27,389 nucleotides of DNA from IMG/VR virus record IMGVR_UViG_3300010885_008179, positions 1 through 27,389 of that record, one strand, 5' to 3'. This DNA comes from a virus. The number at the start of each line of letters is the position of its first letter. The first letter of the stretch is position 1. A program made the translations under genes and the position numbers. This document shows, one piece after another, positions 3,483 to 27,373 of the stretch. The notes below the pieces were generated by a model. The model did not search any database, was not told the origin of the DNA, and saw nothing but the letters and a program-made list of their open reading frames with translations.

Positions 3483-3498
3483 GAGATTATTTAAGTCC

Positions 3499-6236: not shown

Positions 6237-6258
6237 GCTGTTAGCCCCTAATATCTTG

Positions 6259-6266
6259 TATTTATT
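6259..6266 (-). promoter_or_regulatory. Late promoter-like octamer AATAAATA
   Basis: Lies in the 34-base gap after the 118-aa gene. It matches the relaxed xATAAATA late consensus of marine T4-like phages (seven of eight bases of the T4 consensus). The predicted start near 6253 leaves a leader of about 17 bases with AGGGG before ATG 6236. Octamer position and leader length match the other two sites in the window. Confidence 0.6.
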
Positions 6267-6270
6267 GTTG

Positions 6271-6627: not shown

Positions 6628-6637
6628 GATTAACTCC
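6628..6637 (-). promoter_or_regulatory. Ribosome binding site that fixes the start at 6627
   Basis: The minus strand reads GGAGTTAATC before ATG 6627. GGAG occupies 6637-6634, with a six-base spacer that contains the TAA stop (6632-6630) of the 756-aa fibre, so the two genes are tightly joined. Confidence 0.75.
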
Positions 6638-8900
6638 AAATGGCCAAATAGTTTGCTGCTGGGGTGCTTCGTTGTTCTGTGTTCTGCACGTAGACTCTGA
6701 TCCTATCACCGAGATAGGAATATGTACATCTCATTGAGTCGTCGCCGTTTACACCGCCTGCATAATGAATCACATGGATAGACGGTATAAATGCTACAAT
6801 ATTTGCCATGCTTTTTCCTGATGGGGGGAATACATCAAAAAAGTTTGCGCCATCGTTGAATGATCCAACTTGATTGGTGTATCCCGATGTGCTGTATTGT
6901 GCTCCGCTGACAATAGTATACTGCGGTAATCTGCTGTCTACATAGGTTTTGGTAGTGGCATGATTTGCATTTACAGGAGCTCCAACCAATGTTAGATATC
7001 CCGTCATAGTGCTGCCTGCCAGAGCCACTTTGGTAGCATCGGTGGCACTGACTGTTATATCTTGTGTGCCGTTAAATGATACACCGTTGATGGTTCTTGC
7101 AGTTTGTAATTGTGTTGCTGTGGCAGCATTGCCTGTAACTGCTCCTACGAGGTTAGCTGTGATCGTTCCTGCTGCAAAATTGCCGCTGGCGTCACGTGCT
7201 ACAACTTTACTAGCAGTATTAGTTGAGGTAGCATCCACTGAAATTGTTACCGGTACACCACCGTCGAATAAACTTAAACTACCACTAGTAGTGGTGTTTA
7301 TCATATTCAAATAACTACCTTTAGTTAGAGCTTCTTGAGCAATTGCCTGCCATGCTAGCCCGCCCGCCTGTGCAGTAAGCACAGTACCCGATGCCCCTAA
7401 TCCCAACATAGCAGTTGTACCAGCTGCTGATTGATAAGGAATAGCACCAAGGCCGCCACCTGGGAGATTTGTAGCTGTGGTTGCTAAGGTAGCTGTAGTG
7501 GCGTTCCCAAAAAAGTTGTTGGCATAAACACCGGCAAATTTGTATCCTGTTATACCAAGATTGGTTGAGTTGTCGCCTATTATAGCAGGAGCGTTCGGTC
7601 CACCAAGACCCAAGGAAGTCGCAGAATCAATAAAGTTAACATCCGGACCACTTGTGCCCATATCAAAATTCAAACGTCCTGTAGCAGATCTAATTGTTGG
7701 AGTACTAGAATCAACAAATAACCTAAGTTGATTTCCACTACCTACAAATATTCCGTTGTCGTTGACATTTAAAGAACTCAGTGTTCCTACCTGTGTCAAG
7801 CCACTCAGTGTCACAGAATTATTAATAGAATTTCCTGTTAATGTTTCTGCACTGGCCGGTACTATGATATTGTTAGATCCATCAAAATTTACACCGTTTA
7901 TGGTTCGTGCAGTAGCCAATCTTGTGGCAGATCCTGCATTCCCTGACAGTGTAGCCCCGATAAATTGAGTAGCCTGCACAGTATTAAATGTACTGATTCC
8001 TGTTGAAGCCGTAACATTGCCTGTGAGATCCCCGACAAATGTAGCTGTAATAGTACCTGCCGAAAATCCACCTTCTGAATTTCTTGCTACTATCTTGCCT
8101 AACACGTTAGAAGATGTTGCGTCAACACTCCATGTGGTCTCTGAATTGCCATTGAAATCAGCACCTGCAATATAAGTGCCTTTTTTCAATAAATTAGTGG
8201 TGTTAGCTGTTATTGTGATGTTTGATGAGGCGTTAAATGGTACACCATTAATCAATCTTGCAGTAGATAATTGATCTGCTGTGGCAGCATTTCCTGTAAT
8301 GCTACCGTTGATCTTAGCTGTAGCGGATAAATTAATTCCTACTTGTAAAGCATTACTGAATCCGGTAACTGAATTGCTGGGATTTATAAGAAATGCCGCA
8401 GCAGTACAGATAGCAAATATTGTACCGTTAGTTTCTAAAAAGATCACGGGCTGAGGATCACCTGCAGTGTCATCTAACGAGCCGGCCCTAGCTCTAGTAG
8501 ATCCAAATCCTTCCACAGCCTCAGGTCCTATAAATCTCCATTCTGCGCCAGTGTATACATATAATTGATTGATCGGAGTTTTTAACCACAGTGCTCCGGA
8601 GTTGGTGTTAGGCGGGGCAGATGCACTAACAGTCGCCGATCCTATCGGATTCCACTGTGTGCCATCATAGGCATATGCTGTGTCGTCTGTGGTATTGAAC
8701 CATATCTGTCCGGTCATCGGTCTCGAGGGAGGAGCTGTGTTGGCAAAGTTTTCTAATAGAAAAATAAAATTTTCATTTTGAGTTTCGCCATAGCCTACAT
8801 AGTTCCTGCCCACTAGGCCTAGACTGGTGGTGGTATCTAGGGTACCGTCATCAAGTACCACTAGTTGTTGTCCGTTAAACTTGTTAATTACATAGGCCAT
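6630..8900 (-). CDS. Long tail-fibre-like protein with internal repeats, 756 aa
   Basis: The longest of the four fibre-family proteins. Residues 1-127 are the shared module, with WFNTTDDTAYAYDG and LWLKTPINQLYVYTG as the two internal repeats. The stalk (about 200-620) contains three 'ATxLxTARxINGVxFxG' units near residues 205-230, 318-347 and 590-618. A further duplicated stretch, SVDATSSNVLGKIVARNSEG and SVDATSTNTASKVVARDASG, recurs about 300 residues apart; such repeats are common in trimeric phage fibre shafts. HATTKTYVDSRLPQY (about residue 650) marks the usual shaft-to-tip junction. The last 100 residues, rich in Y, F and G with IPSIHVIHYAGG and YLGDRIRVYV, form a unique tip and are the best candidate for receptor contact. 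AGGAG lies eight bases before ATG 8900. The adjacent downstream gene looks like its folding helper. No catalytic motif was seen. Confidence 0.88.
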   Translation of the reverse strand: MAYVINKFNGQQLVVLDDGTLDTTTSLGLVGRNYVGYGETQNENFIFLLENFANTAPPSRPMTGQIWFNTTDDTAYAYDGTQWNPIGSATVSASAPPNTNSGALWLKTPINQLYVYTGAEWRFIGPEAVEGFGSTRARAGSLDDTAGDPQPVIFLETNGTIFAICTAAAFLINPSNSVTGFSNALQVGINLSATAKINGSITGNAATADQLSTARLINGVPFNASSNITITANTTNLLKKGTYIAGADFNGNSETTWSVDATSSNVLGKIVARNSEGGFSAGTITATFVGDLTGNVTASTGISTFNTVQATQFIGATLSGNAGSATRLATARTINGVNFDGSNNIIVPASAETLTGNSINNSVTLSGLTQVGTLSSLNVNDNGIFVGSGNQLRLFVDSSTPTIRSATGRLNFDMGTSGPDVNFIDSATSLGLGGPNAPAIIGDNSTNLGITGYKFAGVYANNFFGNATTATLATTATNLPGGGLGAIPYQSAAGTTAMLGLGASGTVLTAQAGGLAWQAIAQEALTKGSYLNMINTTTSGSLSLFDGGVPVTISVDATSTNTASKVVARDASGNFAAGTITANLVGAVTGNAATATQLQTARTINGVSFNGTQDITVSATDATKVALAGSTMTGYLTLVGAPVNANHATTKTYVDSRLPQYTIVSGAQYSTSGYTNQVGSFNDGANFFDVFPPSGKSMANIVAFIPSIHVIHYAGGVNGDDSMRCTYSYLGDRIRVYVQNTEQRSTPAANYLAIWS
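7048..7137 (-). repeat. INGV shaft repeat, copy 3 in the 756-aa gene
   Basis: Encodes TATQLQTARTINGVSFNGTQ and flanking residues. It is preceded by the second copy of the SVDATS...VVAR segment, so the real duplication unit is longer than the INGV core. Confidence 0.75.
7860..7946 (-). repeat. INGV shaft repeat, copy 2 in the 756-aa gene
   Basis: Encodes GSATRLATARTINGVNFDGS and flanking residues. It is followed, in the direction of reading, by a shaft segment that is not repeated. Confidence 0.75.
8209..8298 (-). repeat. INGV shaft repeat, copy 1 in the 756-aa gene
   Basis: Encodes TADQLSTARLINGVPFNASS and flanking residues. It aligns in protein and partly in DNA with the copies at 7860-7946 and 7048-7137; the conserved core is 'QL-TARxINGVxF'. 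Confidence 0.75.
8520..8900 (-). repeat. Shared fibre N-terminal module, copy in the 756-aa gene
   Basis: Encodes residues 1-127 (NKFNGQQLVVLDDGTLDTTT, GRNYVGYGE, NENFIFLLENFANT and two W-x-x-T/Y-G repeats). It is most like the 607-aa copy, suggesting a recent duplication or gene conversion between these two. Confidence 0.85.
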
Positions 8901-8919
8901 TTATGCCGCTCCTGATTCA

Positions 8920-10734
8920 TTATGGTGGAAGTACTGTGTCTGACTGCCAGGCCCACACACTTCCTACTATTTGAAACAATTTGATAATTCTTGTTACAGA
9001 CACACCGGCTGCTGAGATAGTGGCTGTTGGAAAACTTATATTGGTAATTGCGAGACTCGAACTGCCGCTTAGATTGGTCAAGAATGGTGCTGTCGACAAT
9101 GCCGGCGGAAGTGAATTTATTTCTAGAGTCTGTGCGTTATTACTGATTAAACTGCATAGTAGTCTTGCATAAGTGCCTGCGCGATATTCGCTTACTGGAG
9201 CAAGATTATTTAATATGTTGGCAATTATATACGTATTCGATTTGCCATCAGACAGATCAATACTAAAAATCAATGGTCTAGATTCTATTCTGTTATCTGT
9301 ATATTCTTTAGTCGCAGCATCTTGAGCAGTGGTTGGATCAGCCATCCCGGTAATTTTTGGAGAACCTATCAATGCCACGTTACCTGTACCATCTGGTTCT
9401 AATTCAATATCCAAGTTGGTTGACACTGTAGAGATGCGATGATTTTCCAATCTCATTTGTGTGACTGGAGGTATTCCCGGGCCTACGTTTACTACGTTTT
9501 GTGTGCCGAAAGATGTAACACCGGGGATACTAGTAATTGCAGATCCTAAACTGTTTCCATCGATAACTTTAGTACCATTAATATATAATGCTTTTCCTGA
9601 TGCTAAATTCAATGTTTCAGAAATATCTAACCAGTTGCTAGCATTGCTATAAGCAATGATTTTATCAGTGGTACCTTTTATGATTATGCCTGCGCCGTCT
9701 GCTGTGCTATTAGTAGGACTGCCCACGTTAGCAATAACAATGTTTTTATCTTCTACTGTAAAAATGCTTGTGTTTAGTGTAGTAGTAGTTCCTTCGACTG
9801 TGAGATTTCCGTTTACTACTAAATCGCCGCCAACATTAACCGTACTAGTTGTTATGGTAGGATATAACCCAACAGTTCTTGCATTTGAATTTATTACTAA
9901 TGCTGCTTCTTGGGTGTCTGATCTGTTAACACTCAAGGTGATATTTTTATTACTCGATTCATTTGCTAAAGTTAAATCACCATTAGTAACAAACAACGAT
10001 CCGTTAATGGCTGACCCGAAGAGTAACCCATCGTCAACAGTAATTTGCAATTGTCCGTTAATTGCATTAGTTGTATCTGTACGAACATATGTGGTAGCAG
10101 GTGCACCGCCAAGACTGTCACTGTTGGTACAGGTTGCACGTATTTTAAAATTAGCCAATGTTCCTACGTTAAACCCAGGTGCAATGCTGCCTGTATATCC
10201 TGTAATAGCTATCTTTGGAGTGAAGCTATCTTTAGCAAATATGCCTAACAATATACCGTTGTTATACAAGCTGGTGATAACTCTAGTTTGGTTAAGAGTA
10301 TCTAGTATAGTATCAACTCTAAGTCCGCTTAGACTCTGCGAGCTGCTGTAGGCCGGAGCTAACAGTATTGCCGATGAGCCGTCGAAGAAAAATAATTGTT
10401 CGCCTACGTCGTCGTACCACAGATCACCTGTAGCCAACGTTGAAGGTTGGGTGCTGGATATTGTTGCAGAGCTAACCGGTACAAAACTAACACCGTTGTA
10501 CACTTTCAATTTTGACTCGCTCGAGTCAAACCATATTTGTCCTCTTAGAGGATGATCTGGTTGGGTTGTATCAGCAAAGTTTTCTAATATCTTGATTAGA
10601 TTTTCATTAAATATTTCTCCGAACCCACTGTAATTTTTACCAATTAACGTAATGTCTGTTGATCGATCATCAATTTGACCGTCAGCAACAGTAGCAACTA
10701 TGGTCCCGTCTGTTTTATTAATCTGATATGCCAT
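8920..10734 (-). CDS. Tail-fibre-like protein, 604 aa
   Basis: Residues 1-128 are the shared N-terminal module (NENLIKILENFADT, GQIWFDSSESKLKVYNG, GDLWYDDVGEQLFFFDG). Residues about 296-335 carry NLTVEGTTTTLNTSIFTVED followed by KNIVIANVG and TADGAGIII, a shaft sequence I recall from many marine T4-like fibres. The segment DAATKEYTDNRIESRPLIFS (about 468-487) is a typical shaft-to-tip junction. The C-terminal 115 residues (ending IIKLFQIVGSVWAWQSDTVL) form a distinct beta-rich tip, different from the tips of the other three fibres. It lies 13 bases after the 705-aa gene, with a weak CAGGT before ATG 10734, so its translation is probably helped by read-through ribosomes. No chaperone is directly adjacent; the 118-aa protein two genes on could serve both fibres. 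A virion fibre is the best reading; which appendage is unknown. Confidence 0.87.
   Translation of the reverse strand: MAYQINKTDGTIVATVADGQIDDRSTDITLIGKNYSGFGEIFNENLIKILENFADTTQPDHPLRGQIWFDSSESKLKVYNGVSFVPVSSATISSTQPSTLATGDLWYDDVGEQLFFFDGSSAILLAPAYSSSQSLSGLRVDTILDTLNQTRVITSLYNNGILLGIFAKDSFTPKIAITGYTGSIAPGFNVGTLANFKIRATCTNSDSLGGAPATTYVRTDTTNAINGQLQITVDDGLLFGSAINGSLFVTNGDLTLANESSNKNITLSVNRSDTQEAALVINSNARTVGLYPTITTSTVNVGGDLVVNGNLTVEGTTTTLNTSIFTVEDKNIVIANVGSPTNSTADGAGIIIKGTTDKIIAYSNASNWLDISETLNLASGKALYINGTKVIDGNSLGSAITSIPGVTSFGTQNVVNVGPGIPPVTQMRLENHRISTVSTNLDIELEPDGTGNVALIGSPKITGMADPTTAQDAATKEYTDNRIESRPLIFSIDLSDGKSNTYIIANILNNLAPVSEYRAGTYARLLCSLISNNAQTLEINSLPPALSTAPFLTNLSGSSSLAITNISFPTATISAAGVSVTRIIKLFQIVGSVWAWQSDTVLPP
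10351..10734 (-). repeat. Shared fibre N-terminal module, copy in the 604-aa gene
   Basis: Encodes residues 1-128. It is more diverged than the 607/756 pair but keeps GKNYSGFGE, NEN...ILENFA and both W-D/Y-G repeats in the same order. Confidence 0.83.
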
Positions 10735-10747
10735 GTTATTTTACCTG

Positions 10748-12865
10748 TTAGAATGCCGGTGGACCGGATCTGATTATAAAGTTCATTGATAGAAACGGAT
10801 TCATCAATCCCACAGCAGTTCCAAGAGTAACACCTCCTAGCTTTTTGACAGGACCGCTGTCTTTGAGATATTGTGCTTGCCCCGGTGCTGTGGGTCCTAG
10901 TCCAGATGTTGCCTCTGGATCGAGGGTGGTGCTTACTGCTATCGCATTGTAATTATTAGCAGCTGTTGATAAAGTATGACTGTGTTCTGGAAGATTGGCC
11001 AAAGTTAGTGCTACTGAGCTAAGGCCAGCTGCACCTCCTAAGATTGTGGCCTGCACGTCTGGAACACGACCTGCAGTTCCTCCGCCAGCATCTACATAAG
11101 GGCCTGCAGATGTAGGCACAGTTCCTGAATTATCCATGTTATCTTTACCTAGAGCAAATCTACCTCTAAGGTCGGGCAGTCTAAAAGTTCCCACACCTGT
11201 CAGGGCAGTAGCCCCATTAAATACAACTCCGATGACATCAAATAAATCACCGTATTTTGATCTTTCAATTTCTGAGCCATCACATAACAAATACCCATCA
11301 GGTGTTGTTCCGCCAGCATAAGGCAGTATTGCACCAATCGGTACAGCTAAGTCTCCCATGAATACTTCTCTAGTCTGTTTTAATAATCCTGAACTAGCCA
11401 ACGTACTTTCACTAGGTCTGTATGTTAATACAAAATCTCCCTTTTTACCTCGGTTAGGTGAGGGTTCGGATTTACCTGCTATGATGTTTGCAGTGAGGGT
11501 TGCATTAAAGATTTTTGTAGCAGCTCCTACCTGACCGTCAAACTGCACAGCAGGCGATATCACATCACCCGCTAGTTGAAAACTAGTCACTGTGCTTAGA
11601 GAAGTAGCGGTGTTGGCATTGCCGCTAATATTTCCTTCTAACACACCTTGTATAGTATCTGCTATAACGGTTTTAGCACGTACAGTATTAAATCTATTTA
11701 AAGTTGTACCTAAATCATAAGTGTTAGTAATTTTTGGTTGAATAGTATTAGTTTGTAGAATCCCAGTAACGTCTATTCCATCTCCCACTATTAGGTTTTT
11801 AGTAATAGCTGCACCACCTAAGGTTCGTATGCTACCATTATTCAAATTACTACTAGCTGTGGTATTATTAGATACGATTGTTCCAGTGAGTTTGAAATTA
11901 CCAATAACATCTAAAGATTCGGTTGGATTTTCTTGATTTATCCCTATAAGATTATCTATTACTCTAAGTATTGTTGCAGGAATTCCGTTTCTGTTAGTCT
12001 GTAAATCAAGAGAGCTACCTGCTGCAGAGTTATATATACTGTTTGCCGATTCAGTCGATAACAGTTTAAATGTTTCGTCAACTCCAATAGAAAGACCATT
12101 ATTGTTTTTTATTTTTATTTCATAATCGGTGGTGTTGATAGTATCTGATCTAAGAAATGTTCCTGCAGCTTTTTCTACGCCGCCCACTAATAACGCTTGA
12201 GCATTTTTAGCAGTACCGTTAAGTAATGGTAAAAATCCTCCTACGAAATTAGCAATTTCACTAGAGGTGTCAGGCGCACTGATGTTTATTCCTGACCTTA
12301 CTGTATCAAATCCAGATATCAAAGTTTTGGGAGTAAAGCTGTCTTTGCTTATGACAATTACAGGAATATCAGCAATATAGAATATCAATATAAATCTATC
12401 TACGTTGTCTGAGTCGGAAATTTTTTCTATAACCGGACCGTATCTCAGGCCGCCCACTGAACTTTCAACAGGGCCAACTAAAATCCATCGTGTGCCTGTG
12501 AATATACGCAGCTGTTGGTTTGTGGTATCTACCCAAAGTTCTCCGATCTTACTGTTTTCTACCGCAGGTTGGCTAACACCTTTTTGTATACCAGATGCTG
12601 CTTTCCATGCTGTGTTATCCCAGATCTTTAAAGTCTGTGTGCCACCTGTGCTGTCATACCATAGCTGGCCTTCTACTGGATTTACTGGTTGATCCGTAGA
12701 AGCAAAATTTTCCAGCAGTGATAAAAAGTTTTCTGCAATTATCTGGCCGTAGCCAGTGACGTTTCGGCCAGGAAATTTAAGACTAGTATCTGTACTAGAA
12801 GTATTATCAAATACCGTAATTGGGCTTTTGTTTTCGTTGTCTGTGAAATTAACTATGTATGGCAT
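10748..12865 (-). CDS. Tail-fibre-like protein with phage tail-collar domain, 705 aa
   Basis: Residues 1-134 are the most diverged copy of the shared fibre module (AENFLSLLENFAST, GQLWYDSTGGTQTLKIWD, GELWVDTTNQQLRIFTG). The shaft (about 140-500) includes GNFKLTGTIVSNN, TNTYDLGTTLNRFNTVRAKT and GNISGNANTATSL, all common fibre motifs. From residue 503 (MGDLAVPIGAILPYAGGTTP) the C-terminus matches the phage tail-collar family: DGYLLCDGSEIERSKYGDLF, FRLPDLRGRFALGKDNMD, NLPEHSHTL (622-630) and the terminal MNFIIRSG. In T4 the family is represented in the short tail fibre, where the domain lies at the receptor-binding end. GAGGT with a seven-base spacing precedes ATG 12865, which lies three bases after the previous stop. 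A short or side fibre of the baseplate is plausible; the receptor is unknown. Confidence 0.9.
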   Translation of the reverse strand: MPYIVNFTDNENKSPITVFDNTSSTDTSLKFPGRNVTGYGQIIAENFLSLLENFASTDQPVNPVEGQLWYDSTGGTQTLKIWDNTAWKAASGIQKGVSQPAVENSKIGELWVDTTNQQLRIFTGTRWILVGPVESSVGGLRYGPVIEKISDSDNVDRFILIFYIADIPVIVISKDSFTPKTLISGFDTVRSGINISAPDTSSEIANFVGGFLPLLNGTAKNAQALLVGGVEKAAGTFLRSDTINTTDYEIKIKNNNGLSIGVDETFKLLSTESANSIYNSAAGSSLDLQTNRNGIPATILRVIDNLIGINQENPTESLDVIGNFKLTGTIVSNNTTASSNLNNGSIRTLGGAAITKNLIVGDGIDVTGILQTNTIQPKITNTYDLGTTLNRFNTVRAKTVIADTIQGVLEGNISGNANTATSLSTVTSFQLAGDVISPAVQFDGQVGAATKIFNATLTANIIAGKSEPSPNRGKKGDFVLTYRPSESTLASSGLLKQTREVFMGDLAVPIGAILPYAGGTTPDGYLLCDGSEIERSKYGDLFDVIGVVFNGATALTGVGTFRLPDLRGRFALGKDNMDNSGTVPTSAGPYVDAGGGTAGRVPDVQATILGGAAGLSSVALTLANLPEHSHTLSTAANNYNAIAVSTTLDPEATSGLGPTAPGQAQYLKDSGPVKKLGGVTLGTAVGLMNPFLSMNFIIRSGPPAF
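12464..12865 (-). repeat. Shared fibre N-terminal module, copy in the 705-aa gene
   Basis: Encodes residues 1-134. It has extra residues in the first 40 positions but keeps TGYGQ, ENF..LLENFA and the two W-D/F-G repeats. It is the outlier of the four copies. Confidence 0.78.
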
Positions 12866-16500: not shown

Positions 16501-19500
16501 GTGTCTGTGAGAATGTATTATAAATTCCGGTGGTGGAGATTCTATCAAATTTTACCGATACATCAAATGTTCGAACTTGAGAATTACCTATGTCTGCCAC
16601 TGCTTTCGCCTGAATAGAGGTAGGAGAGTTTCCGCCTACTAATGTAATCGTTGGTGCTGTGGTGTAACCGGCACCTGCAGTTAGCACTTGTATGCCTGAA
16701 ACTTTACCGTTGGAGATAAATGCTTTTGCGGTCGCACCGGTGCCTGTTCCGCTAATCAATACTTTAGGAGGAGTAGTATAGTCTGTGCCCGGTTGATACA
16801 CTTCTATAGCAGTCACCGTGTAGGCATTATTATCTGCCCACCATTTCCATGGATATTTTGATATTTCTGCAGATGACGAATTAACAGGATTTGCGCGGCC
16901 ATCAAAGATCGAGTATGCCGGCGGTAAATCAAAATCGGCTACTGCTGATGAATATGTTTCTGGTGTGTTATAACGACTTATATATTCTCTAACTGTGGTT
17001 CTAAATGGTTTAACTTCGTTGATGTATTCTTGATAACTCTGTAAATTATCATTTTTATAATTGACTTTCTGTTCAAATGCCCCAATATTATGCGTAGCAT
17101 TTAGAAAACTAGTTTTGAATACCCAATCTACATACTGCTGTTCGCTGAATACATGTCGTATTGAAGCAAAAAATAATTTGTTCCATTCTACCGCATAGTC
17201 GCCGATAAACACCTGTTGTTTGATCGCTGTGAATATGTTTCTCAATTCTCTAGAATTTTCAATGTCATATGTTGTGGTATCAAATGCCTGTGTGTTGTCA
17301 AATCCGACACCAATTATCCCTGTGTTATATAATGAGGAATTTATTTGAATAGTGCCGAGTTGTCTGCTGACTAATAGATATCTGTCTAGGAACAATTCAG
17401 CAGTATCTGAGATTTTTTCAAATATTGCCCATCCGCCAGCAGCGTATTCTTTAACTTTTATGATATCCCCGATAGCAATTTGATTATCAACTACGTCGTA
17501 GATACTGTTCAACTCTTTAATTATTCGAAGATTGCTAGCATATCCTGTGCGAACCCAATCTATTTTGCTCCAATATTTGGTTGTATCGAAGGATTGAGAT
17601 TTACTGCGGAAATATACTTTACGCAAATCATCCCAAGAATATATACTCCAGAAATTATTTAGAGTAGCATCACTGTTCACTAACACAGAAAAATATCTAA
17701 TTTGCACACTGATAGTGCTATATTTTTTACCACGATTAGTTACTACCACAGCAATCACACGACCTTGGCCGTCTATATGGCATCGCGCGGTAGCATTGAC
17801 TCCATCTCCGGATATAGTGAGTGGCGGGCCAATATAAATTCCGCTCTGCTCTTGATCAAACAGCTCTTTAGGTTTATATCCGTATCCCGGATCCACGATA
17901 TCTACAGTATCTAATTCGCCATTGATAAGATTTCCTCGTAGAACAGCACGGCGAGTGTTAGTTGTTCCTACAGTCTGAAGATCGATATCAGTGTCTACTG
18001 CCACATCATAAAGATTTAATGCAGAGCTAGGCGCAGTATCCACACTACTGAGATTGGTAAAATCTATGGTTTCTGCAAAAGTTTCTTTTTGTAAAATATT
18101 GTTGATATATTCTATAACAATTTTCAGTGCTAAAATTCTATCAACAAACATGGTCTGACGTGGTCGATATTCAATTCCGTATTTTTGTTTAGCTGACAGC
18201 GATATATCTGGAATTCTATTTCCTGCAATATCCGAACCTACAAGACTATCAATCCATTTGTTTTCTAGTTTAGCAGACGGCAAACTATCAGCCACTCCCT
18301 CTGTGAGCAATTGATATTCATTGTGTACAGGAATTTGTGATTCTAGGTTTTTTCTAATTTGTAGATTTATTAGTGCTGTATCAGACTGCATAACTGATTT
18401 AAAATTATAACTTAAAAATTTATCTGATTGCAAAAATGCTACAAACGCAATACCAGTTCCTGCAGGATTTGAAATTAAGTTTGCTACTTCAGCTGCTGAT
18501 CGTTTACGATCCACCGTGTTAGACGGAGTCACAGCCTTGCTTCTAACCCAGTAATAGTATAATGTTTCTGAAACTTGGCCAGTGGTAGAACTAAAGAAAA
18601 ATTTCACACTGTAAACATCATTGTTAGGATACAAGGGTTGACCGCTGATTCCTTGAGCTAGTCCTGCGTTGGTATCTGCCAACGCAGCCCATTCATTAGG
18701 CAACAGCACTGTTTCTACCCACTCGTAGACATCAATGCTAGAGCCTTGAACTGTTTGATTCCAATTTCCTATTCTATAAGCAGCATCTTTTTGTTCTGCA
18801 TATTGAAACTTAGCTGTGCTGATATTCCACCATAGTTTTCCTACATTTTTTTCCAACCAGTTAATAGTAGGATCTACTACCACCGATGTTGTGCCCACAG
18901 TGTATACTGCAGGATCATAAGGAGTTTTATATTTTATTTCCTGTTCAGCTATGTTTAAAATTTTTCCTCTAGCAGCATCAATGTAATCTACATCTTGTAT
19001 TTTTATATTTTTAACATTGTCATATAGTTCAATTTTCTTTATTTTTCTTAGATCAACTAATGGCTGTTGGCTGGTCAACGTGGTCCAACTTGCACCGGCA
19101 GCAGTAGAAGTAAACAAGCGAGCAATTCCTTGATAGGTATTAGTCACTGAATTTTTATAGTAAGGAGATCCTACCAGTAACTTTGTGCCCACACAATCTA
19201 CACTATGACCAAACGATTCGTCTGCTTGTAAATCGCTGTCAAGTTTTTCTGTGAGAAAGAATATTTGATCTTTTTTATCAAACACATAGACTCCGCCAGT
19301 AAATCCTTGTTCTACATAAAAGCCTGTTCTACTGTTATCAAATGTTGTTCCTTTTAAAAGATCAAAGTTTACAGGAAATGGAGTTTTGGCATTTCTGGCG
19401 CCTACGGCGATCTTTGCACTATCTGGACTCACTGACACAGCAAAGCCAAAATATTCGTTGGCATAGATTTCATAGCTCTGTAAACGTTGTTTCACACGGA

Positions 19501-22500
19501 ATTCAGTAACAGGCTGATCTAGTTCCAACACATACACTGCACCCTGATCTTGATAGTTTACGTCTGATCTAGGACAAGAAACGGCCAAGGTTGTTCCATT
19601 AGAATCCATATCCATGCTAAACCCAAATTGATCCCCTGTGCTAATAACTAACCCAGAATCGATATCAGTAAACGATGTCAGAGAACCAGCATTGATCATC
19701 TGAGTGAGTTCGTAAGAATCATATTGGGTTTTCTTATAAACAAAAATTTTGCCACTGGAAGTTGTTGTACTATCACCCACCTGTTGCCAACTTGCACTGT
19801 CAGAAGGATCTTCGTTATAGCTTCGATATGTACTGTCAGGTCCTGAAAATGTATCTCCTAACTGATAGTACTGATATGCATCGCTAGGTGATCCACGATG
19901 TCTAACTGTTTCGCCTTCGATATATTCTACATCGGCACGCCATAGTCCTCGGTAGTTAGCAAAGTAAGCACCGTCACTGTCGGGTGCGCCTATGACCAAT
20001 ATACTGCCATCACTACTCATAGTCATAGAAAAACCAAATTGATCTCCCTGCTTGACTAATTCTGCTTTTTGTGTATCTGTTAACAGTCCTGTAGTGGTAA
20101 ATTCTACCGTAGACCCGTCATCTTCTACAGAAATATTTGTAGGCAACGAACAGTGTGTGGAAATCTCACTGACCTTGAGCCAGTTCTGAGAATCTAGAGT
20201 AATGGTGCTGCCGTCCGATGTTGAACCATCTAGACTCTGCCAGAGGTTGCCACGAGTAGCTTCTCCCACAGGATCTTCAGATGCTTGCCATACTATTTCA
20301 CCTTGCTTGTACGAATCAAACAGATTGTATATACCCTTATACAACGGGTTTTCCATATGCGTCCATTCAGTTCCGGTATACTTGATAAGATATACTCTAC
20401 CTGTGTTGTTGTAAGAACCTATGGCAGATACTGCTAGATAATATTCGGTGCCGTTTACCCCAATGGTAATTTCTGATCCAAATTTTTCGTTGTCTGTAGG
20501 TCTTGGTGAGACAAATGCAGTGACGTTGATGTATCGTCCGCTAATAAATTCATATACAGCTACCATACCTTGCTGATAATAACCAGTGTTACGACCTGAT
20601 GTTTCAGCAGGAATAACTGTTGTATGCGGAACCCAATCATCAGAATTTATAGCTACCTGAGTGCTGCCATCGCCTAGACCTACAAAATTTCCATTGGCAT
20701 TCAATGCTCTATAAAGTCTACCGCCATATAGTACAATGTCATTTTGTTCATAGGCTACTTCAGTCTGCCACTCGCCCATGAATCTATTCACCACGCCGCT
20801 GGCCGTAGGCGCACCAACCACTAGATATTTGCCGTCAGGGCTGACTGCCATTTTTTCACCGAACGATCCTAGAGCGATGTCGTAGAATCCAATAGGCGGT
20901 GCTATGATCTGTTTTAACGAGAGTCCTGTATCTGTTTCCACATACACATTTACAAATCCTGAACCAGGCATGCTGCTGATCACGTGTTTATTAATATTGT
21001 CGTAAACAACTTTAGAGCCTGCGAGCAGTGGCGCTGAGGTACCAAAATCTGATATAGGTTTTGAAGTATATAATTTATTTTTCTGTACCACTTCCCATCG
21101 ATCGTCGCCGTTGTTATCTACAAATACTAGTGATTTGTTTTTCAACAGTGCGGATGGATGTTGATCAACAGCCGCATAGTCATCGAATCTTGCTGTAGTT
21201 AACAACTGAATGTTAACTGTGGTGCTGGAGTCTAATTCAGGATCACTGATGTCTGCGCCGACAACAACTGTTATAGTAGTATTGGTTACTGCGCTGACTT
21301 TGAAAAATCCACTAAGATTAACAATCTCACGGAATCCCACATAATCATCAACTGCCACCGAATGTGATCTGTTCAAGGTCAGCGTAACTACTGTGTCGTC
21401 TATACGTACTGCTTCGGTGACGTATAACAGCGGTGATTCGTTGACTCGAAGTATCTGCCACGAGTCTTGATCGAATGTTACCCAGATGTGATCATTTTCT
21501 TCAACAGCAGTTATGTCCAGCGTGGTTAATTGATCCAATGCGCCAATTACATGCTGATACTGACCTGCACTAACGTAACCGGCAGTTAATTCTGGTTCTA
21601 GATCTACAGTAGTGGGTAAAATATCTACAGTGTAGGGAATTAACGAAATTGTAAAATCATTGGCAGTGAATCTATAATATTGATCTAAAGCGTTAGGCGT
21701 TTCGCTGCTGGTTACCAAATGCGGCTGCGGATCTAATTTAAATCTATTCTTTTCTAGTTGGATTTCAATTTCTGAAAATTGATCAACTCCACCAACCTGA
21801 CCTAATCTAAAGGCCCATTCTTCATTAAGTACCACGCTGTCAGATCCTGATCTACTCAGCTTGTTGAAAATTTTGGTCACGCTGTTTGCGGTACCTTTTT
21901 CTCTAATAAATCCTTGATATAATTTAAATTGGCTCACAGAATCTTCTGCAAGATTTTGTAGATAGTCTCGTTGTTGATATCCTATAGCATGTCTAGCTAA
22001 TTCTCGTTGACTTTGGTCTAGCCCTTGAGAAGAAGTTTCAAAATAATCGCTGAATTGCTTTATCTTATAATCAAAATTTGACACCAGCTGTTTGACTGGT
22101 TTTGAATCTAGTTTTGACCAATTAGCATCATTGAATTCTTCTGTGCCTAATTGATTTACAAGACTAGTCCAATCATAAGATTTGTAAGATACTATGTCCC
22201 CTAGCTTATAATCTTTAAAAGGTGTCCAGGTCTGTATATCGACATTATCAAATATAAATCCGGGACTTGTATAATCGCCGTCCCAATCCACTGTGCGATA
22301 GCCCTGCATTTTGATACGACCCTGACGATATCCAGTAGGCTTATCATAGATAATATCATTGAATACTGTACGATCATTGAATACCGTAACATGTTCTTTT
22401 ATTACGTAATGCAGTCTTGCATAGTAGATACCGTCAGTGGTATTTGTAGTTTCTATCTTGAGATTTTGAAAACTTCTATTAACATTTAGAAATCTCGGAG

Positions 22501-25500
22501 CCAACGGAGTTCCGTCTCCTTTAAGGATCTGATAGTCATAGAAACCGTCTAATAAATTGTCTGGTGTTCCGATCGGAACTGAAATCTCTAATTTTTGTGC
22601 GGAGGGGCTTAGAGCAATGATCGCTCCTGGTTCCCAATTGTGTTTGGTCCAGAACATAAACTCTTTAGCAGCACTGAGCCAATCTTGGCTGGTAGCATTC
22701 TGAGGATCATAATTATCAAAGATAAGTCCCTGTGTTTTCAGATAACTCTCATAGCCTAATAGTAGATCCACTACTTCTTGTATAGTGTTTAACTGTGTTC
22801 CGTAGCTGATCTGTCTCACTGACAACGTGTTAAACACACGTCTACGTTGAGCTTCTATTGCACCTATTTTAGGCACATCGCCTAGTTTCTGCCATTGAAC
22901 ACGATCGAAATCCCCGCCGCTGCGATGTGTTTTCAAGGCACGATAAAAATTACTTTGATATCTTACTAGTGTGCCATTGTTGTAGTTTTTGTCTTCAATC
23001 CAGTCTGTAAACGATTCACTAACGCCGCCTACAGAAATTATAGGATCTTTGCTGCTGGCCTGAGCTTGATGGTAGTTGAAGTAGGGATGAATATCATCAT
23101 ACCCTGCTATTATCCAACCGCCGCCAGTTTTTTCCAGTCTCACTCCACTGTAGCTTACCGTAGTTACAGGACTGCTAACGTTGAATATAATGTCATAATT
23201 TTCTGAAGGAATAAAAATTCCAGACGTAGTGGCTGAGGGATTTTTAGAATCTAATAGATATTTCTGCTGTTGCTGATCAACAAAGCCACTCATTCTAAAA
23301 CTTAACGCAACATCTAATTTTTCTATTTTAGTTTGTAGACTGTCTTTATCTAATCCTTGAGATTTTGTATAACTGGTCAAATATTTTACCAAACCCACGG
23401 TAATAGAATCTGTCACGTAAGGTGAGATATCAGCTATCGTTGTAAAGAGCCCTGTTGTTGAATTTACATATTGATCTAACTTGTTTTTTATGATTCTTGA
23501 TCTATCAAAATTGTCAGGTATATATTCAAATGGTTTCATCAAACACATGGCAGTGACTATTGCATAAGGCCATTCAGAACTGGATCTCCATGCATATTCT
23601 ACCGGACTCACATCTCCTAACACAAAAGGTCCGCGATTGTTAATCAACGAAAAATCCTGTGCTAAATTAGAATCCAATGGGCTCAATAATTTGCCGTCAC
23701 CATCTACCGGTACATGCCTAATAAGCCCCGGACGCTTGTATCTATCGTGTCGACCTGCTCGAACACCTTGGCGAATAATACCAGCTTCAAGGTCTTCCCA
23801 AAGAATTAAGTTATTGCTAGTATAAGGAGCAGCACCGTATTCTTCCTGCCACCAATCGGGTTGCTGGCTAAATCCTAGCATTTCCCAAGGACAGCGATGC
23901 GGTCTATCTGTATCATAGAAATGCTGGTACACACCTCTCCACCAACCAGGGATGTTTTTGGTCTTGGTAGGGTCTGACATATTTGAATAGGTGTAAGTGA
24001 ATGAGTTCTCACTGTCAAAATATTCATTTAAAGTGTAGTTGATATTGGTGTTTTGAATCCACTTGAGGAAATCCTGCACTACAATACCATCTAACTGATT
24101 TTTAGAATATTCGCCTTGACCATAATAGCCTGCTAGTATTTGATCTATGTCAAAAACTGCAGGATCATATTCTTGTTTGATATTATTATAGATACGTAAT
24201 TCAAGTTCTATCAGTAGATCATCTCTAAAATCGTTAAAGGCTGCGGTGATACTGCCATCATGCCCCTGTATCACGTATCTAGGTTCTTGATAGGTGTCAT
24301 CAAGAAATTTCATCGGAGTGTATTTTTTGTACAATCCCATAGATGTAGGTGTTGGCGGAATATGGTTTGTTGCTGTGCTGAGATATTCTCTTATCTCAAT
24401 CGTATCACCCACCGCTAGTGATTCTGTAATTTTTACAAAACTAAATGTAGAATCAAATTCATAGTCATAAGCGTTTATCAATTGCACACCGTTTTTATAA
24501 ACATAAACAGCTCGGTTGCTTGGTGTTTTTAAATCAAATGTCTCTGTTAAAGAAAATACGGTGATTCCTGGGTCTTCAACCAGTGTCTCTAACACAGTAT
24601 AGGCTCCTGCTCCTATCATATCCGAATCAGCAAATGCATCTTCTGCTGTTTTTACTGCTGTAAGACTATTGATAATGTCGTCGACAAAATTAACTACTTC
24701 ATCATTAAAGTCAATTTCAATTGCTCTTTGTAGAAAATTATTTTTAAAATCTGTATATTCTTTTTTAGCATATTGAATAGACTTTATAATATTATGAGTC
24801 TTGTCACACAAGGACATTACAGCCAGCGGCGAATTACCGCTGTGTTTTAAAAATCTTTTGGCAAACAGTCTGTAATCTTCAATATCTCTTAGATTACTAA
24901 CTCCCGGCAATATTCCTGTAAATTCAGTGGCCCATTCTACTGCGCTGCTAATATGATCAACAGCCTGACCTAGAGTAAACGATTCAATAGGAGTGTTAAA
25001 AGGATTTTTTCCTAGACCAACTGGCATTTCGTAGAAACCTTGATCAGGTTCAATATCTGCAACAAGTTTTATTACTACAACATCGGTTGCCGCAAATGTT
25101 TTGTTAAACACAAAGGTGCCACGATTTCTTGTCCATGTGCCGGTATATTTTATGCCGTTAAGATAGAAATTTATGTCGGGGTCAGTATTTAGACTCTCCC
25201 ATTGTACTGTATTAAACACTAATGTGTCCGTGGCTGTTTCTACCACTTGATTATCTATTATAGGTTGTAGATATTTAGAATTTAGTTGCTGCCATCCATT
25301 GGCATATCTATCAGATCCGAATCTATAAAAACCCGAAGATATTTTTTTCTGCACTGGTGCTCTATCAATAGTGTAACGGAATGTTTCTGTATCCCAGTTC
25401 CAATTAAATTCTATATCGCCGATATTATCTATGTTAAGATAACTGATTTTAAACCCCAGTTCTTTATCGATTCTAGCGTTCCCTGGCTTGTAGCTTAATA

Positions 25501-27373
25501 TACTCGAACCAGTGAATTCTGAGTCTGTATATGTGGTATGGTCGCCGAAACTAATTTCGTTGCTGTCAAAGACATCAAACATCGGCGCTTGATTTACAGT
25601 GGTCTTGGGTTGACTAGATACCCAATCAGTTCCGTTAAAATGGAACATTAGTCCTTTGTTTGCTGTGCCGCGTCTTACAGTCACACCCTGCCCTAGTATC
25701 GATTCAGTGTCATCACTTTCTCTTAGGTGAATTTGGGTAACGCTGTTATGCGTGATAAATTCTACTGTGTAAATTTTGTTATTAACTAATTTATCTTTGT
25801 CTGCTACCACTAATACCCTTGCACCCTGAAACAAAAATTCACCATCTATGTTATAGCCTTTGGCTCCTTCAATTATTGAAAACACATCAGTGGTTGCGGT
25901 GTCGATGTAATCCACAGTCTGTTTGGCTGTAGATCCGTGATTGAATAATTGCAGGCCTGCACGGAATTCTATAATCGGACGTTTAGCTCTAGCAGTTTCG
26001 TTGGCTAGAAAATCTTGTCCTCTTAATTGATATGCTTGTTCTAAGACAGACCTATGGAACCAACGATTGTATCTACTCCAAGGGTTGTTGTCAACACTGT
26101 CTCTAGCAATTGTAATATAGTCTTTAAATGCAGCGTATTCTGTGGCATCATCAAAAGGCTGCGTATCAAATCCTTCGTTGTCGAACAACACTTCAGGAAC
26201 TTCTGCACTGAGTACTGGCACTACAAGATCACTAAATCTAGTCAAGGTTATGGCTGTGCCTACTCCTTCTACTAACCATGCATCTCTTGCATAGATAGCA
26301 GGTAATACGTTGCCTGAGAATTCGACAATCATGCCGTTACTAAATTCTATACCATTGCCACTGGTATATGTGGTTTTACCAATAATTTCTATGTCTACGT
26401 TAACGAATGTGTTTTCTTCTATGTCTGCAATAACAAATCTTCCAAATGCATCTGGAGTTATTTTACTTTGGTAATATAGTGTGTCGGGTGCATCATATGG
26501 CACCACAAATGTCAAAGTACCGTTTTCAATACCGTTGTTGGTGATTCCTTTACTGTAGTCTAATGCGGAGCCTTCGCCAGCAGGCTCTACATATTGCCAA
26601 TCTTCACTGTCTATAGTAATTGAACTAGTATCAAGGCTGGTAACATCTCTAACTGCTCGCCATAGTTTTGAATCATACACCACAAGACTGTTCTGTGCGT
26701 AACTTCTGTTAGGTTGAAATAATAAACTGCCTGTATCGAAATTAGTGCGTATTGCAAATCCTTCAGCAGGAGCATTAACTTTGAATTTGTAGGTTTGTCC
26801 TCGGTAAAGAGTTAACGTAGGATTATTAGTGTATGCATCTGGTGTGAACACAAATGAATTTTTAGTTGTACCTAATACTACCTTATAGGTGCTAGTGATA
26901 CTAGAACTTTGACCTGTAATATTAATGCTGCGTGGGCCTAGTGGCTCCCAATAATATTCTCGATAGTTGATGAACTTGTCCCAATCGATAGGAGGATTCC
27001 AGGTGTAGTGCGTTTGGCTGGTTACTTTATCATCTCTTTCAATAGTATTTTCAAAAAATTTCAATTGATTTTTAACATCAATATAATCGTAGAAGTTTTC
27101 TATTTTATCGTGATTTTTAAATATCACTCCAGGTTCAAGTTGATAACTGCTACGCAATGTGCCATCTGTGTCAATGTACACATCTTTACCATTATAGGTT
27201 TTGTCATATCTACGACCAATGTAACCCACAACTTTATCTAACACCCCTGGCTGTATTAGGGGATCGACTACTGCCGATAAAAATTTATCGTTAGCCGGAG
27301 TTTGAAAAATTACTGGTAGCAGTTCTACTGATCTGCGTATTGGTAGTTGACTGTTAGGAAATTTATCGGCCAT
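13547..27373 (-). CDS. Giant multi-domain virion-associated protein, 4608 aa
   Basis: A single open frame of 13.8 kb, product about 500 kDa by length. The N-terminus (residues 11-67, PIRRSVELLPVIFQT then VVGYIGRRYDKTY) matches what I remember of giant structural proteins of marine T4-like phages. Reading on: W/Y-rich carbohydrate-binding-like modules at about 213-262, 1456-1503, 1711-1760, 2197-2250, 2343-2403 and 2472-2530; an aromatic block (IPGWWRGVYQHFYDTDRP, WEMLGFS; about 1139-1186); six FG-GAP-like repeats (about 2160-2760); GxGY glycine-rich blocks (about 3161-3227 and 3524-3580); many 'NG...DY...GD.I.I' strand repeats (about 735, 955, 3620, 3960, 4190, 4300); and a C-terminal block (PGVVFIQGERIEYML, about 4395; EVFAAGRRLKK, about 4503). 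No signal peptide or membrane helix was seen. ATG 27373 has no Shine-Dalgarno in the 16 visible upstream bases. A tail or baseplate appendage is my inference; an ejected or adhesin-like protein is possible. Confidence 0.9.
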   Translation of the reverse strand: MADKFPNSQLPIRRSVELLPVIFQTPANDKFLSAVVDPLIQPGVLDKVVGYIGRRYDKTYNGKDVYIDTDGTLRSSYQLEPGVIFKNHDKIENFYDYIDVKNQLKFFENTIERDDKVTSQTHYTWNPPIDWDKFINYREYYWEPLGPRSINITGQSSSITSTYKVVLGTTKNSFVFTPDAYTNNPTLTLYRGQTYKFKVNAPAEGFAIRTNFDTGSLLFQPNRSYAQNSLVVYDSKLWRAVRDVTSLDTSSITIDSEDWQYVEPAGEGSALDYSKGITNNGIENGTLTFVVPYDAPDTLYYQSKITPDAFGRFVIADIEENTFVNVDIEIIGKTTYTSGNGIEFSNGMIVEFSGNVLPAIYARDAWLVEGVGTAITLTRFSDLVVPVLSAEVPEVLFDNEGFDTQPFDDATEYAAFKDYITIARDSVDNNPWSRYNRWFHRSVLEQAYQLRGQDFLANETARAKRPIIEFRAGLQLFNHGSTAKQTVDYIDTATTDVFSIIEGAKGYNIDGEFLFQGARVLVVADKDKLVNNKIYTVEFITHNSVTQIHLRESDDTESILGQGVTVRRGTANKGLMFHFNGTDWVSSQPKTTVNQAPMFDVFDSNEISFGDHTTYTDSEFTGSSILSYKPGNARIDKELGFKISYLNIDNIGDIEFNWNWDTETFRYTIDRAPVQKKISSGFYRFGSDRYANGWQQLNSKYLQPIIDNQVVETATDTLVFNTVQWESLNTDPDINFYLNGIKYTGTWTRNRGTFVFNKTFAATDVVVIKLVADIEPDQGFYEMPVGLGKNPFNTPIESFTLGQAVDHISSAVEWATEFTGILPGVSNLRDIEDYRLFAKRFLKHSGNSPLAVMSLCDKTHNIIKSIQYAKKEYTDFKNNFLQRAIEIDFNDEVVNFVDDIINSLTAVKTAEDAFADSDMIGAGAYTVLETLVEDPGITVFSLTETFDLKTPSNRAVYVYKNGVQLINAYDYEFDSTFSFVKITESLAVGDTIEIREYLSTATNHIPPTPTSMGLYKKYTPMKFLDDTYQEPRYVIQGHDGSITAAFNDFRDDLLIELELRIYNNIKQEYDPAVFDIDQILAGYYGQGEYSKNQLDGIVVQDFLKWIQNTNINYTLNEYFDSENSFTYTYSNMSDPTKTKNIPGWWRGVYQHFYDTDRPHRCPWEMLGFSQQPDWWQEEYGAAPYTSNNLILWEDLEAGIIRQGVRAGRHDRYKRPGLIRHVPVDGDGKLLSPLDSNLAQDFSLINNRGPFVLGDVSPVEYAWRSSSEWPYAIVTAMCLMKPFEYIPDNFDRSRIIKNKLDQYVNSTTGLFTTIADISPYVTDSITVGLVKYLTSYTKSQGLDKDSLQTKIEKLDVALSFRMSGFVDQQQQKYLLDSKNPSATTSGIFIPSENYDIIFNVSSPVTTVSYSGVRLEKTGGGWIIAGYDDIHPYFNYHQAQASSKDPIISVGGVSESFTDWIEDKNYNNGTLVRYQSNFYRALKTHRSGGDFDRVQWQKLGDVPKIGAIEAQRRRVFNTLSVRQISYGTQLNTIQEVVDLLLGYESYLKTQGLIFDNYDPQNATSQDWLSAAKEFMFWTKHNWEPGAIIALSPSAQKLEISVPIGTPDNLLDGFYDYQILKGDGTPLAPRFLNVNRSFQNLKIETTNTTDGIYYARLHYVIKEHVTVFNDRTVFNDIIYDKPTGYRQGRIKMQGYRTVDWDGDYTSPGFIFDNVDIQTWTPFKDYKLGDIVSYKSYDWTSLVNQLGTEEFNDANWSKLDSKPVKQLVSNFDYKIKQFSDYFETSSQGLDQSQRELARHAIGYQQRDYLQNLAEDSVSQFKLYQGFIREKGTANSVTKIFNKLSRSGSDSVVLNEEWAFRLGQVGGVDQFSEIEIQLEKNRFKLDPQPHLVTSSETPNALDQYYRFTANDFTISLIPYTVDILPTTVDLEPELTAGYVSAGQYQHVIGALDQLTTLDITAVEENDHIWVTFDQDSWQILRVNESPLLYVTEAVRIDDTVVTLTLNRSHSVAVDDYVGFREIVNLSGFFKVSAVTNTTITVVVGADISDPELDSSTTVNIQLLTTARFDDYAAVDQHPSALLKNKSLVFVDNNGDDRWEVVQKNKLYTSKPISDFGTSAPLLAGSKVVYDNINKHVISSMPGSGFVNVYVETDTGLSLKQIIAPPIGFYDIALGSFGEKMAVSPDGKYLVVGAPTASGVVNRFMGEWQTEVAYEQNDIVLYGGRLYRALNANGNFVGLGDGSTQVAINSDDWVPHTTVIPAETSGRNTGYYQQGMVAVYEFISGRYINVTAFVSPRPTDNEKFGSEITIGVNGTEYYLAVSAIGSYNNTGRVYLIKYTGTEWTHMENPLYKGIYNLFDSYKQGEIVWQASEDPVGEATRGNLWQSLDGSTSDGSTITLDSQNWLKVSEISTHCSLPTNISVEDDGSTVEFTTTGLLTDTQKAELVKQGDQFGFSMTMSSDGSILVIGAPDSDGAYFANYRGLWRADVEYIEGETVRHRGSPSDAYQYYQLGDTFSGPDSTYRSYNEDPSDSASWQQVGDSTTTSSGKIFVYKKTQYDSYELTQMINAGSLTSFTDIDSGLVISTGDQFGFSMDMDSNGTTLAVSCPRSDVNYQDQGAVYVLELDQPVTEFRVKQRLQSYEIYANEYFGFAVSVSPDSAKIAVGARNAKTPFPVNFDLLKGTTFDNSRTGFYVEQGFTGGVYVFDKKDQIFFLTEKLDSDLQADESFGHSVDCVGTKLLVGSPYYKNSVTNTYQGIARLFTSTAAGASWTTLTSQQPLVDLRKIKKIELYDNVKNIKIQDVDYIDAARGKILNIAEQEIKYKTPYDPAVYTVGTTSVVVDPTINWLEKNVGKLWWNISTAKFQYAEQKDAAYRIGNWNQTVQGSSIDVYEWVETVLLPNEWAALADTNAGLAQGISGQPLYPNNDVYSVKFFFSSTTGQVSETLYYYWVRSKAVTPSNTVDRKRSAAEVANLISNPAGTGIAFVAFLQSDKFLSYNFKSVMQSDTALINLQIRKNLESQIPVHNEYQLLTEGVADSLPSAKLENKWIDSLVGSDIAGNRIPDISLSAKQKYGIEYRPRQTMFVDRILALKIVIEYINNILQKETFAETIDFTNLSSVDTAPSSALNLYDVAVDTDIDLQTVGTTNTRRAVLRGNLINGELDTVDIVDPGYGYKPKELFDQEQSGIYIGPPLTISGDGVNATARCHIDGQGRVIAVVVTNRGKKYSTISVQIRYFSVLVNSDATLNNFWSIYSWDDLRKVYFRSKSQSFDTTKYWSKIDWVRTGYASNLRIIKELNSIYDVVDNQIAIGDIIKVKEYAAGGWAIFEKISDTAELFLDRYLLVSRQLGTIQINSSLYNTGIIGVGFDNTQAFDTTTYDIENSRELRNIFTAIKQQVFIGDYAVEWNKLFFASIRHVFSEQQYVDWVFKTSFLNATHNIGAFEQKVNYKNDNLQSYQEYINEVKPFRTTVREYISRYNTPETYSSAVADFDLPPAYSIFDGRANPVNSSSAEISKYPWKWWADNNAYTVTAIEVYQPGTDYTTPPKVLISGTGTGATAKAFISNGKVSGIQVLTAGAGYTTAPTITLVGGNSPTSIQAKAVADIGNSQVRTFDVSVKFDRISTTGIYNTFSQTQIFTATGSSAVFFLNYSPTNDKTKIRVTQKSFLTKKTQVVLASEYTINLYYQATDSYSLLRGKLIFNTAPPKDNEITVTYDKNILLLDAVNRINQSYTPKAGMIGKELNQLMTGIDFGGVRIQGTTFDVTGGWDALPWFTDNWDSVEASSDYYHVCDGSTATVTLPYIPAAGQQINIYIKRKNTDITVRVDDEAYLPTQDSSTGTNPTAEMPTFIGDGANAVVEIGVYLSTVDGDILIFRPIESDGSVVITDENILDTKLSGGSLSSISGAYVTANGTTAEEISIIGGKFIDPTVVPAPEENVPGQVIESVSIKVYNNAVSGAAPLHSNVKIANGIDTEFVIGQTVLENQSVFVYVSNTPRVINTHYTINLETNTVNFLAAPSVDEFVEILSIGIGGVGILDYQSYTADGATGLFLTNANYDNTSSVFVSINGTQVDVGFRNSTDVVDAVGKTLVEFGITPQVGDIVKIVCLESTTDIDSSGLSLVQVNTQTFYFEGSTRSFEITGFSELTRGATLGSLIVEANGQLLKGPDTVYAVYDGTNNIFSLGVDPLEPGGSILPVNLKVLINDRPATFIVDYTLNGAAKVLTVNASKLSVGDTIKIENDLRAEYSIQDTIITIDSAFDFGFPGDSTVSDSTYPAVNVTWFGEYPSMDIIQDESTGGQVQYKLSRPPISVSYVWVYKNGHRLSQDKDYYVSLPRAVVYITADTTPADTIKIVNFSNDIFTLPSAYEIHKDMLNVFHYNRFSKDECKLAKVLNYYDTTIEVTNATGLSQPIANRNLPGVVFIQGERIEYMLKSGNILSQLRRGAQGTAIANTYAQGTAVVDVGYSEVIPYNEVQQRTDFTSDGSSLLIGPLDFVPQKGTRSGTWYRNTIPATCGPCDQIEVFAAGRRLKKDPQSVYVEANGAASPAADETQEAEFSVDGATAQIRLTAALPAGTRITVLRRQGTTWYARGETTATDGISLVHTDTAIARFIVEKTTAIPE
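16633..16804 (-). other. GxGY glycine-rich block 2 in the giant protein
   Basis: Encodes about residues 3524-3580: YQPGTDYTTPPKVLISGTGT, GATAKAFISNGKVSGIQVLT and AGAGYTTAPTITLVGG. It is a cleaner copy of block 1; the two lie about 360 residues apart and probably fold alike. Confidence 0.65.
17692..17893 (-). other. GxGY glycine-rich block 1 in the giant protein
   Basis: Encodes about residues 3161-3227: DPGYGYKPKE, GPPLTISGDGVNATARCHID, then GRVIAVVVTNRGKKYSTISV. The order 'GxGY..PP.(L/V)xISGxGxxATAxxxxxGxVxxIxVxxxGxxY' is the same as in the block encoded at 16633-16804. Confidence 0.65.
19093..20896 (-). other. FG-GAP-like repeat region within the giant protein
   Basis: Six repeats of the form 'FG...(S/A)-x-x-x-G-x-x-L-x-V-(G/S)-(A/S)-P' are encoded here: FGEKMAVSPDGKYLVVGAP (about residue 2168), FGSEITIGVNGTEYYLAVSA (2295), FGFSMTMSSDGSILVIGAP (2443), FGFSMDMDSNGTTLAVSCP (2579), FGFAVSVSPDSAKIAVGA (2640) and FGHSVDCVGTKLLVGSP (2720). 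Several are followed by GxVYxxx strands (GRVYLIKY, GAVYVLEL, GGVYVFDK). The pattern is that of FG-GAP beta-propeller blades, as in integrin alpha chains. Spacing is uneven because other modules sit between the blades. Confidence 0.7.

Follow-up and report, generated by a model that had tools for sequence, protein, structure and literature searches.

Among solved structures, the closest in fold to the element reported here is the integrin alpha head, which consists of seven FG-GAP blades and in some integrins carries an I domain in a propeller loop. Giant eukaryotic viruses also encode FG-GAP proteins with this propeller fold, as does phage Atu_ph07 in the form of a free-standing, FG-GAP-like protein of 393 residues. 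Small carbohydrate-binding modules (CBMs) of the CBM5/12 type are present in chitinase A1 and in the tailspike gp124 of phage Milano, and giant virion proteins of the family PHROG 10938 are encoded by the phages PA5oct (gp355), Atu_ph07 (gp180), SCTP-2 (gp140), and RaK2 (gp465). Both the FG-GAP propeller fold and the CBM5/12 modules are thus already known, but we know of no earlier case of three modules in one propeller. Here we describe such a propeller in a giant protein encoded within positions 1 to 27,389 of IMG/VR record IMGVR_UViG_3300010885_008179, the whole of which is referred to as the window; its loops carry three modules, M1, M2, and M3, and the positions of all features are collected in Table 1. 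We give about an even chance to the reading that this is an exposed, insertion-tolerant propeller in a baseplate giant of a jumbo myovirus, which would act as a rigid peripheral platform with the modules as its contact sites.

An earlier note on this DNA, made from the letters alone, had read an FG-GAP-like propeller at this site, and this was borne out by Pfam, by a pattern search against shuffled sequences, and by a structural model. Pfam FG-GAP_2 (PF14312) matched the whole protein with an E-value of 1e-14 over four stretches and the propeller segment with 7.3e-21 (74.5 bits versus a curated cut-off of 23). A regular expression for FG-GAP blades found five blades, versus a mean of 0.012 and a maximum of 1 in 2000 shuffles; the count of bare FG dipeptides is unremarkable, being reached in 161 of the 2000. 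The FG motifs lie at residues 2171, 2298, 2446, 2583, 2642, and 2721, and all six FG blades of the earlier note are present, but the blade total is seven, with an FG-less blade at residues 2122-2157. An AlphaFold2 model of residues 2085-2795, built on an alignment with 54 relatives, had a predicted local distance difference test score of 83.5 and a predicted template-modelling score (pTM) of 0.85, with 28 strands falling in order into seven blades of four. When the propeller was searched by sequence against solved structures, the only return was integrin alpha-E, at an E-value of 0.87, and a fold search was needed. With Foldseek against the PDB, integrin alpha heads led the matches, which run along the whole length (best E-value 1.1e-11); heads of some 446 residues gave a template-modelling score normalised by target (TMt) as high as 0.61, a score that is depressed by the inserts. 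Against viral models the best TMt was 0.74, for a 411-residue protein, and the best values among the eukaryotic-virus and Atu_ph07 FG-GAP proteins were 0.70-0.74. Judged from the strand order, the pTM, and the Foldseek matches, we have good confidence in a predicted closed seven-bladed fold, from whose blades the modules stand apart in the model.

The earlier note had also called the insertion of modules into propeller loops an unusual design, which holds for the number of modules per propeller but not for the principle, as integrins place an I domain in such a loop and the Foldseek match titles mention that of alphaM. Where integrins have one I domain, however, three loops of the phage propeller each hold a small module of CBM type, the propeller belongs to a baseplate-region protein, and it shares only about 10% identity with integrin heads over the aligned columns. 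The FG-GAP proteins of Atu_ph07 and the giant eukaryotic viruses differ from it in being separate proteins and not part of a baseplate giant. Divalent-cation binding of the integrin type, raised in the earlier note, is not supported: no calcium loop of the DxDxDGxxD type was found in the propeller, which contains a single partial motif, DMDSNG, in blade 5. Separately, the short insert of blade 6 (residues 2664-2689; window 19307-19384, minus strand) contains the pattern FD..TTFD..RT.F, which hardly varies among propellers, whether bare or loaded.

The W/Y-rich stretches had been placed in the gaps between blades, and this is correct for M2, but M1 interrupts blade 2 and M3 interrupts blade 4, in each case between strands B and C. 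That they are additional loop elements was upheld by the strands of the model and by relatives that have the same blades and no modules: in a profile alignment of these bare relatives the blades match, most of the M1-M3 stretches remain unmatched, and M1 is absent from these relatives. The flanks of M2 align less certainly, with strand 3D placed differently by profile mapping and by the model. Taken together, the model and the alignment support the W/Y-rich stretches as predicted separate modules outside the blades. Pfam CBM_5_12 matched the whole protein with an E-value of 1.4e-14 over three stretches, the best of which is M1 at residues 2201-2226, and an iterated family profile identified five modules in the protein (at 224, 1463, 1721, 2208, and 2354; E-values 4e-13 to 2e-8). 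By profile kinship, M1 and M2 belong to the chitin-binding CBM5/12 superfamily, as the earlier note had supposed of all three stretches. M3 alone falls below significance with the module profile in the window protein, and is tentatively termed CBM5/12-like because the orthologous loop holds profile-positive modules in relatives L197, L213, L223, and L250. Unlike known CBM5/12 domains, the phage modules are inserted in propeller loops.

Searched against solved chains, the module profile matched chitin-oligosaccharide deacetylases, chitinases, and, over its N-terminal residues 29-117, the Milano tailspike gp124 (8fqc). A model of the core region (residues 1003-2100) locally resembles the chitinase A1 chitin-binding domain (1ed7; TMt 0.74, root-mean-square deviation 1.9), attributed to one of the two modules predicted within that region. 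Such kinship would suit a host-adhesion disc, in which M1-M3 attach to host glycans, either of the envelope or of the capsule, and the propeller is a multivalent, lectin-like presenter: the superfamily is chitin-binding, the core-region model that resembles the chitinase A1 domain includes the module at 1463-1494, and avidity would follow from having several copies in each chain. We nevertheless consider this reading unlikely. The modules are not hypervariable, unlike many receptor-binding parts, and the tryptophan after the second strand, which we take to be the chitin contact of ChiA1, is missing by eye from the aligned modules. In cyanophage A-1(L), no host binding was seen for a distally placed carbohydrate-binding module (PMC10966104). 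The three binding sites that the earlier note assigned to the disc are putative, and the closest virion counterpart of this module type serves in docking to a protein.

In our reading of the propeller as a contact platform, its partners would somewhat more likely be fibres of the phage itself than host glycans. The part of Milano gp124 that the profile matched belongs to its tail-binding module, and the peripheral wedge protein is the usual attachment of receptor-binding proteins (PMC10811340). The giant gene heads a run of fibre genes, four of which lie downstream (window 4413-12865), and the four encoded proteins have in common an N-terminal domain of about 135 residues with 35-51% identity, which suggests a common dock. 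In the mechanism that we propose, the seven-bladed disc would form a rigid platform at the baseplate periphery, the loops of the blade 2-5 sector would carry small beta modules, these modules would form contact sites on the platform, and the contacts would be made with the fibres through their common domain. Because the same module type anchors the Milano tailspike, fibre docking appears at least as likely as contact with host glycans. Two observations weigh against this reading. The core-region model returned no PDB match at E≤0.001, so that the placement of the giant in the baseplate rests on gene order and on mass spectrometry of distant relatives. The fibre N-terminal domain, for its part, is found beside propeller-less giants at 12 of 15 loci as well as beside propeller-bearing ones (62 of 66), and the dock therefore need not be the propeller; the domain as a specific partner of the propeller is correspondingly weakened.

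To place the propeller among its relatives, scans of viral contigs were used, which yielded 138 distinct slots between two conserved cores. A propeller was recognized by pattern in 116 of these, an approximate count that missed the propellers of L151 and L152, and clustering at 60% identity gave 62 clusters, with about 58 mappable non-redundant propellers. FG-GAP_2 scored in all 54 aligned relatives and CBM_5_12 in 31 of them. Inserts of at least 40 residues are almost wholly restricted to blades 2-5, where they occur in spans 2B-2C (22/58), 3C-4A (33/58), 4B-4C (19/58), 4C-5A (15/58), and 5C-6A (21/58), while the remaining spans each have 0 to 3 among about 58 propellers. These counts are shaped by phylogeny and do not represent independent events. 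Sixteen of the roughly 58 propellers are bare. All 20 CBM-positive propellers lack inserts at 4C-5A and 5C-6A, while 21 of the 22 insert-bearing propellers without a CBM module, whose module types were classed by eye, have an insert at 5C-6A. In another clade, which carries inserts of other kinds, they map mostly to C-D loops. A propeller has its B-C and D-A loops on one face and those of types A-B and C-D on the opposite one. M1-M3, located in B-C and D-A loops, should therefore share one face of the disc, opposite to that of the C-D inserts in the other clade.

From 81 rows and 844 columns of the core, a tree was computed by a quick method with Shimodaira-Hasegawa-like approximate likelihood-ratio (SH-aLRT) support; its rooting is uncertain, and the outgroup does not fall on one side of a branch. 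The propeller-bearing rows form one branch of 62 (SH-aLRT 100) and the CBM type one branch of 21 (99), beside which stands a bare clade of eight rows (99; both together 97), and the CBM set is reconstructed with one origin on this tree. Inserts of other kinds need four changes. The rows L151 and L152, labelled propeller-less in the tree, have FG blades with inserts in their sequences, and L274, within the propeller branch, appears to be a real replacement of the propeller. The inserts might be passive spacers, tolerated decorations that pack between giants or stiffen the baseplate and have no specific partner, which would agree with the scattering of the same module type elsewhere in the chain and with the quite different inserts, or none, of other clades. 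We regard this as improbable, since the CBM set has been kept since its one origin, mostly in the same loops, and conservation of M2 (80%) and M3 (82%) is on par with that of the blades (67-87%); that of M1, at 70%, is lower. Returning to the contact platform, we hold it slightly less than evenly probable that the propeller is a general display scaffold, with CBM5/12 modules in three loops in one clade, inserts mainly in the C-D loops of blades 3-5 in the other, and bare discs persisting, such that display site and face would have changed in evolution, tuning fibre docking or host adhesion.

Three further observations concern the slots. L183 (13349-15832) has, besides its modules, an extra domain of about 130 residues in the blade 3 C-D hairpin that is cupredoxin-like by eye. 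Long arrays of GxGY-type repeats (VTNPGRGYRTAPSVEV...) occupy the slots of L053 and L230 or lie within blade 1, and the window protein also has a copy of this repeat, near residues 3529-3600. In L274, part of the material between the cores, where the propeller is apparently replaced, is SGNH/GDSL hydrolase-like by eye.

The open reading frame (ORF) of the giant has no internal stop, its start codon lies 16 bases inside the window end, and the minus strand holds nearly all large ORFs of the window. Its protein product scored 1023 bits against PHROG 10938 ('virion structural protein'). In L067, a close relative, the giant directly follows a gene whose product is a gp6-like baseplate wedge protein (945 bits to phrog_10646), and a gp6-like gene likewise precedes the giant in three of the four named phages, PA5oct, Atu_ph07, and RaK2. 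The annotation of PA5oct gp355 carries an ESI-MS/MS note, and in CBB, a RaK2-like phage, CBB_236 was detected in virions with 21 peptides (PMC5259590); CBB_236 adjoins CBB_237, which is gp6, by number, and its orthology to the giant is taken from this position. From gene order and the mass spectrometry of these distant relatives, we infer that the giant sits in the baseplate. The propeller is carried on contigs of up to 281,658 bases, which makes the phages jumbo-sized, and the source is most likely a jumbo myovirus, an uncultured large bacterial virus.

A gene directly after gene 6 is also the position of T4 gp7, and the giant could be a true, enlarged homologue of this wedge protein with the propeller as the counterpart of a gp7 domain; a stretch of T4 gp7, SNDKGQTW, presumably resembles a propeller Asp-box. 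Apart from the shared position seen in L067, homology to T4 gp7 found no support by sequence or fold: hhalign with whole and partial profiles gave probabilities under 1%, the Pfam gp7 domains were not found in the giant, and gp7 was not among the 50 PDB matches listed for the model of residues 1003-2100, none of which reached E≤0.001. We thus think it rather doubtful that the giant is a gp7 homologue.

The cores of the four PHROG 10938 giants are homologous to the window protein and align on both sides of the slot. For PA5oct, window residues 521-1883 and 2756-3094 align at 25-30% identity, and the two proteins are 28% identical over 1449 columns. In place of the propeller, however, these giants have 222-1537 other residues (PA5oct 325, SCTP-2 511, RaK2 222, Atu_ph07 1537), and FG-GAP gave no match in their slots. 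Neither the window propeller nor that of L165 had a match in a tblastn search of 50,697 phage genome records; for the bare L270 propeller there was one match, to a separate protein of phage Phosso. A literature search joining FG-GAP, chitin-binding, and phage returned only a biofilm review. The giant of Salicola phage SCTP-2 (L054) is, in its slot at about residues 2110-2350, LamG/concanavalin-type by eye, and Pfam is silent there.

Elsewhere in the window, two neighbouring ORFs (372-2068, minus strand) contain DADMILLRD and IDSDFFILSN stretches and are GT-A glycosyltransferase-like by eye, with no Pfam match. Two adjoining ORFs at 2478-4413 (minus strand) are mutual paralogues by eye and matched neither PHROG nor Pfam.

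Table 1. Positions of the propeller, its modules, and the surrounding genes in the window (residue numbers refer to the giant protein).
Feature	Window position	Strand	Basis
Seven-bladed FG-GAP propeller, residues 2122-2768	19070..21010	minus	Pfam FG-GAP_2; AlphaFold2 model; Foldseek to integrin alpha
Blade 1, residues 2122-2157, without FG motif	20903..21010	minus	four model strands; aligns to FG blade of bare relatives
Blade 2, residues 2171-2290, split by M1	20504..20863	minus	bare-relative profile alignment and model
Blade 3, residues 2298-2340	20354..20482	minus	model
Blade 4, residues 2446-2562, split by M3	19688..20038	minus	bare-relative profile alignment and model
Blade 5, residues 2583-2632	19478..19627	minus	model
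Blade 6, residues 2642-2712, short B-C insert	19238..19450	minus	model and family conservation
Blade 7, residues 2721-2768	19070..19213	minus	model
M1, CBM5/12-like, residues 2196-2262, blade 2 B-C loop	20588..20788	minus	Pfam CBM_5_12; family profile E 1.7e-8
M2, CBM5/12-like, residues 2345-2405, between blades 3 and 4	20159..20341	minus	family profile E 2.1e-10; model
M3, residues 2470-2535, blade 4 B-C loop	19769..19966	minus	CBM5/12-like from the orthologous loop of relatives
Further CBM5/12-like module, residues 224-259	26597..26704	minus	family profile E 2.7e-12
Further CBM5/12-like module, residues 1463-1494	22892..22987	minus	family profile E 3.8e-13
Further CBM5/12-like module, residues 1721-1752	22118..22213	minus	family profile E 2.8e-12
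Giant virion (baseplate-region) protein, 4608 residues	13547..27373	minus	ORF; PHROG 10938; gp6-adjacent in L067
Collar-type fibre protein, shared N-terminal domain	10748..12865	minus	Pfam Collar 3.2e-17; N-terminus comparison
Fibre-like protein, shared N-terminal domain	8920..10734	minus	PHROG; N-terminus comparison
Tail-fibre-like protein, shared N-terminal domain	6630..8900	minus	PHROG; N-terminus comparison
Fibre-like protein, shared N-terminal domain	4413..6236	minus	PHROG; N-terminus comparison

This marks the description, in a giant baseplate-region protein of uncultured jumbo phages, of a three-module propeller that had no match in the 50,697 phage genome records searched. The loop map shows which loops of the phage propeller accept added domains, and the bare and differently loaded relatives offer a natural series in which to study the role of the inserts. 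Because the disc of related viruses either lacks inserts or has other loops filled by other inserts, the propeller looks like an adaptable display platform.

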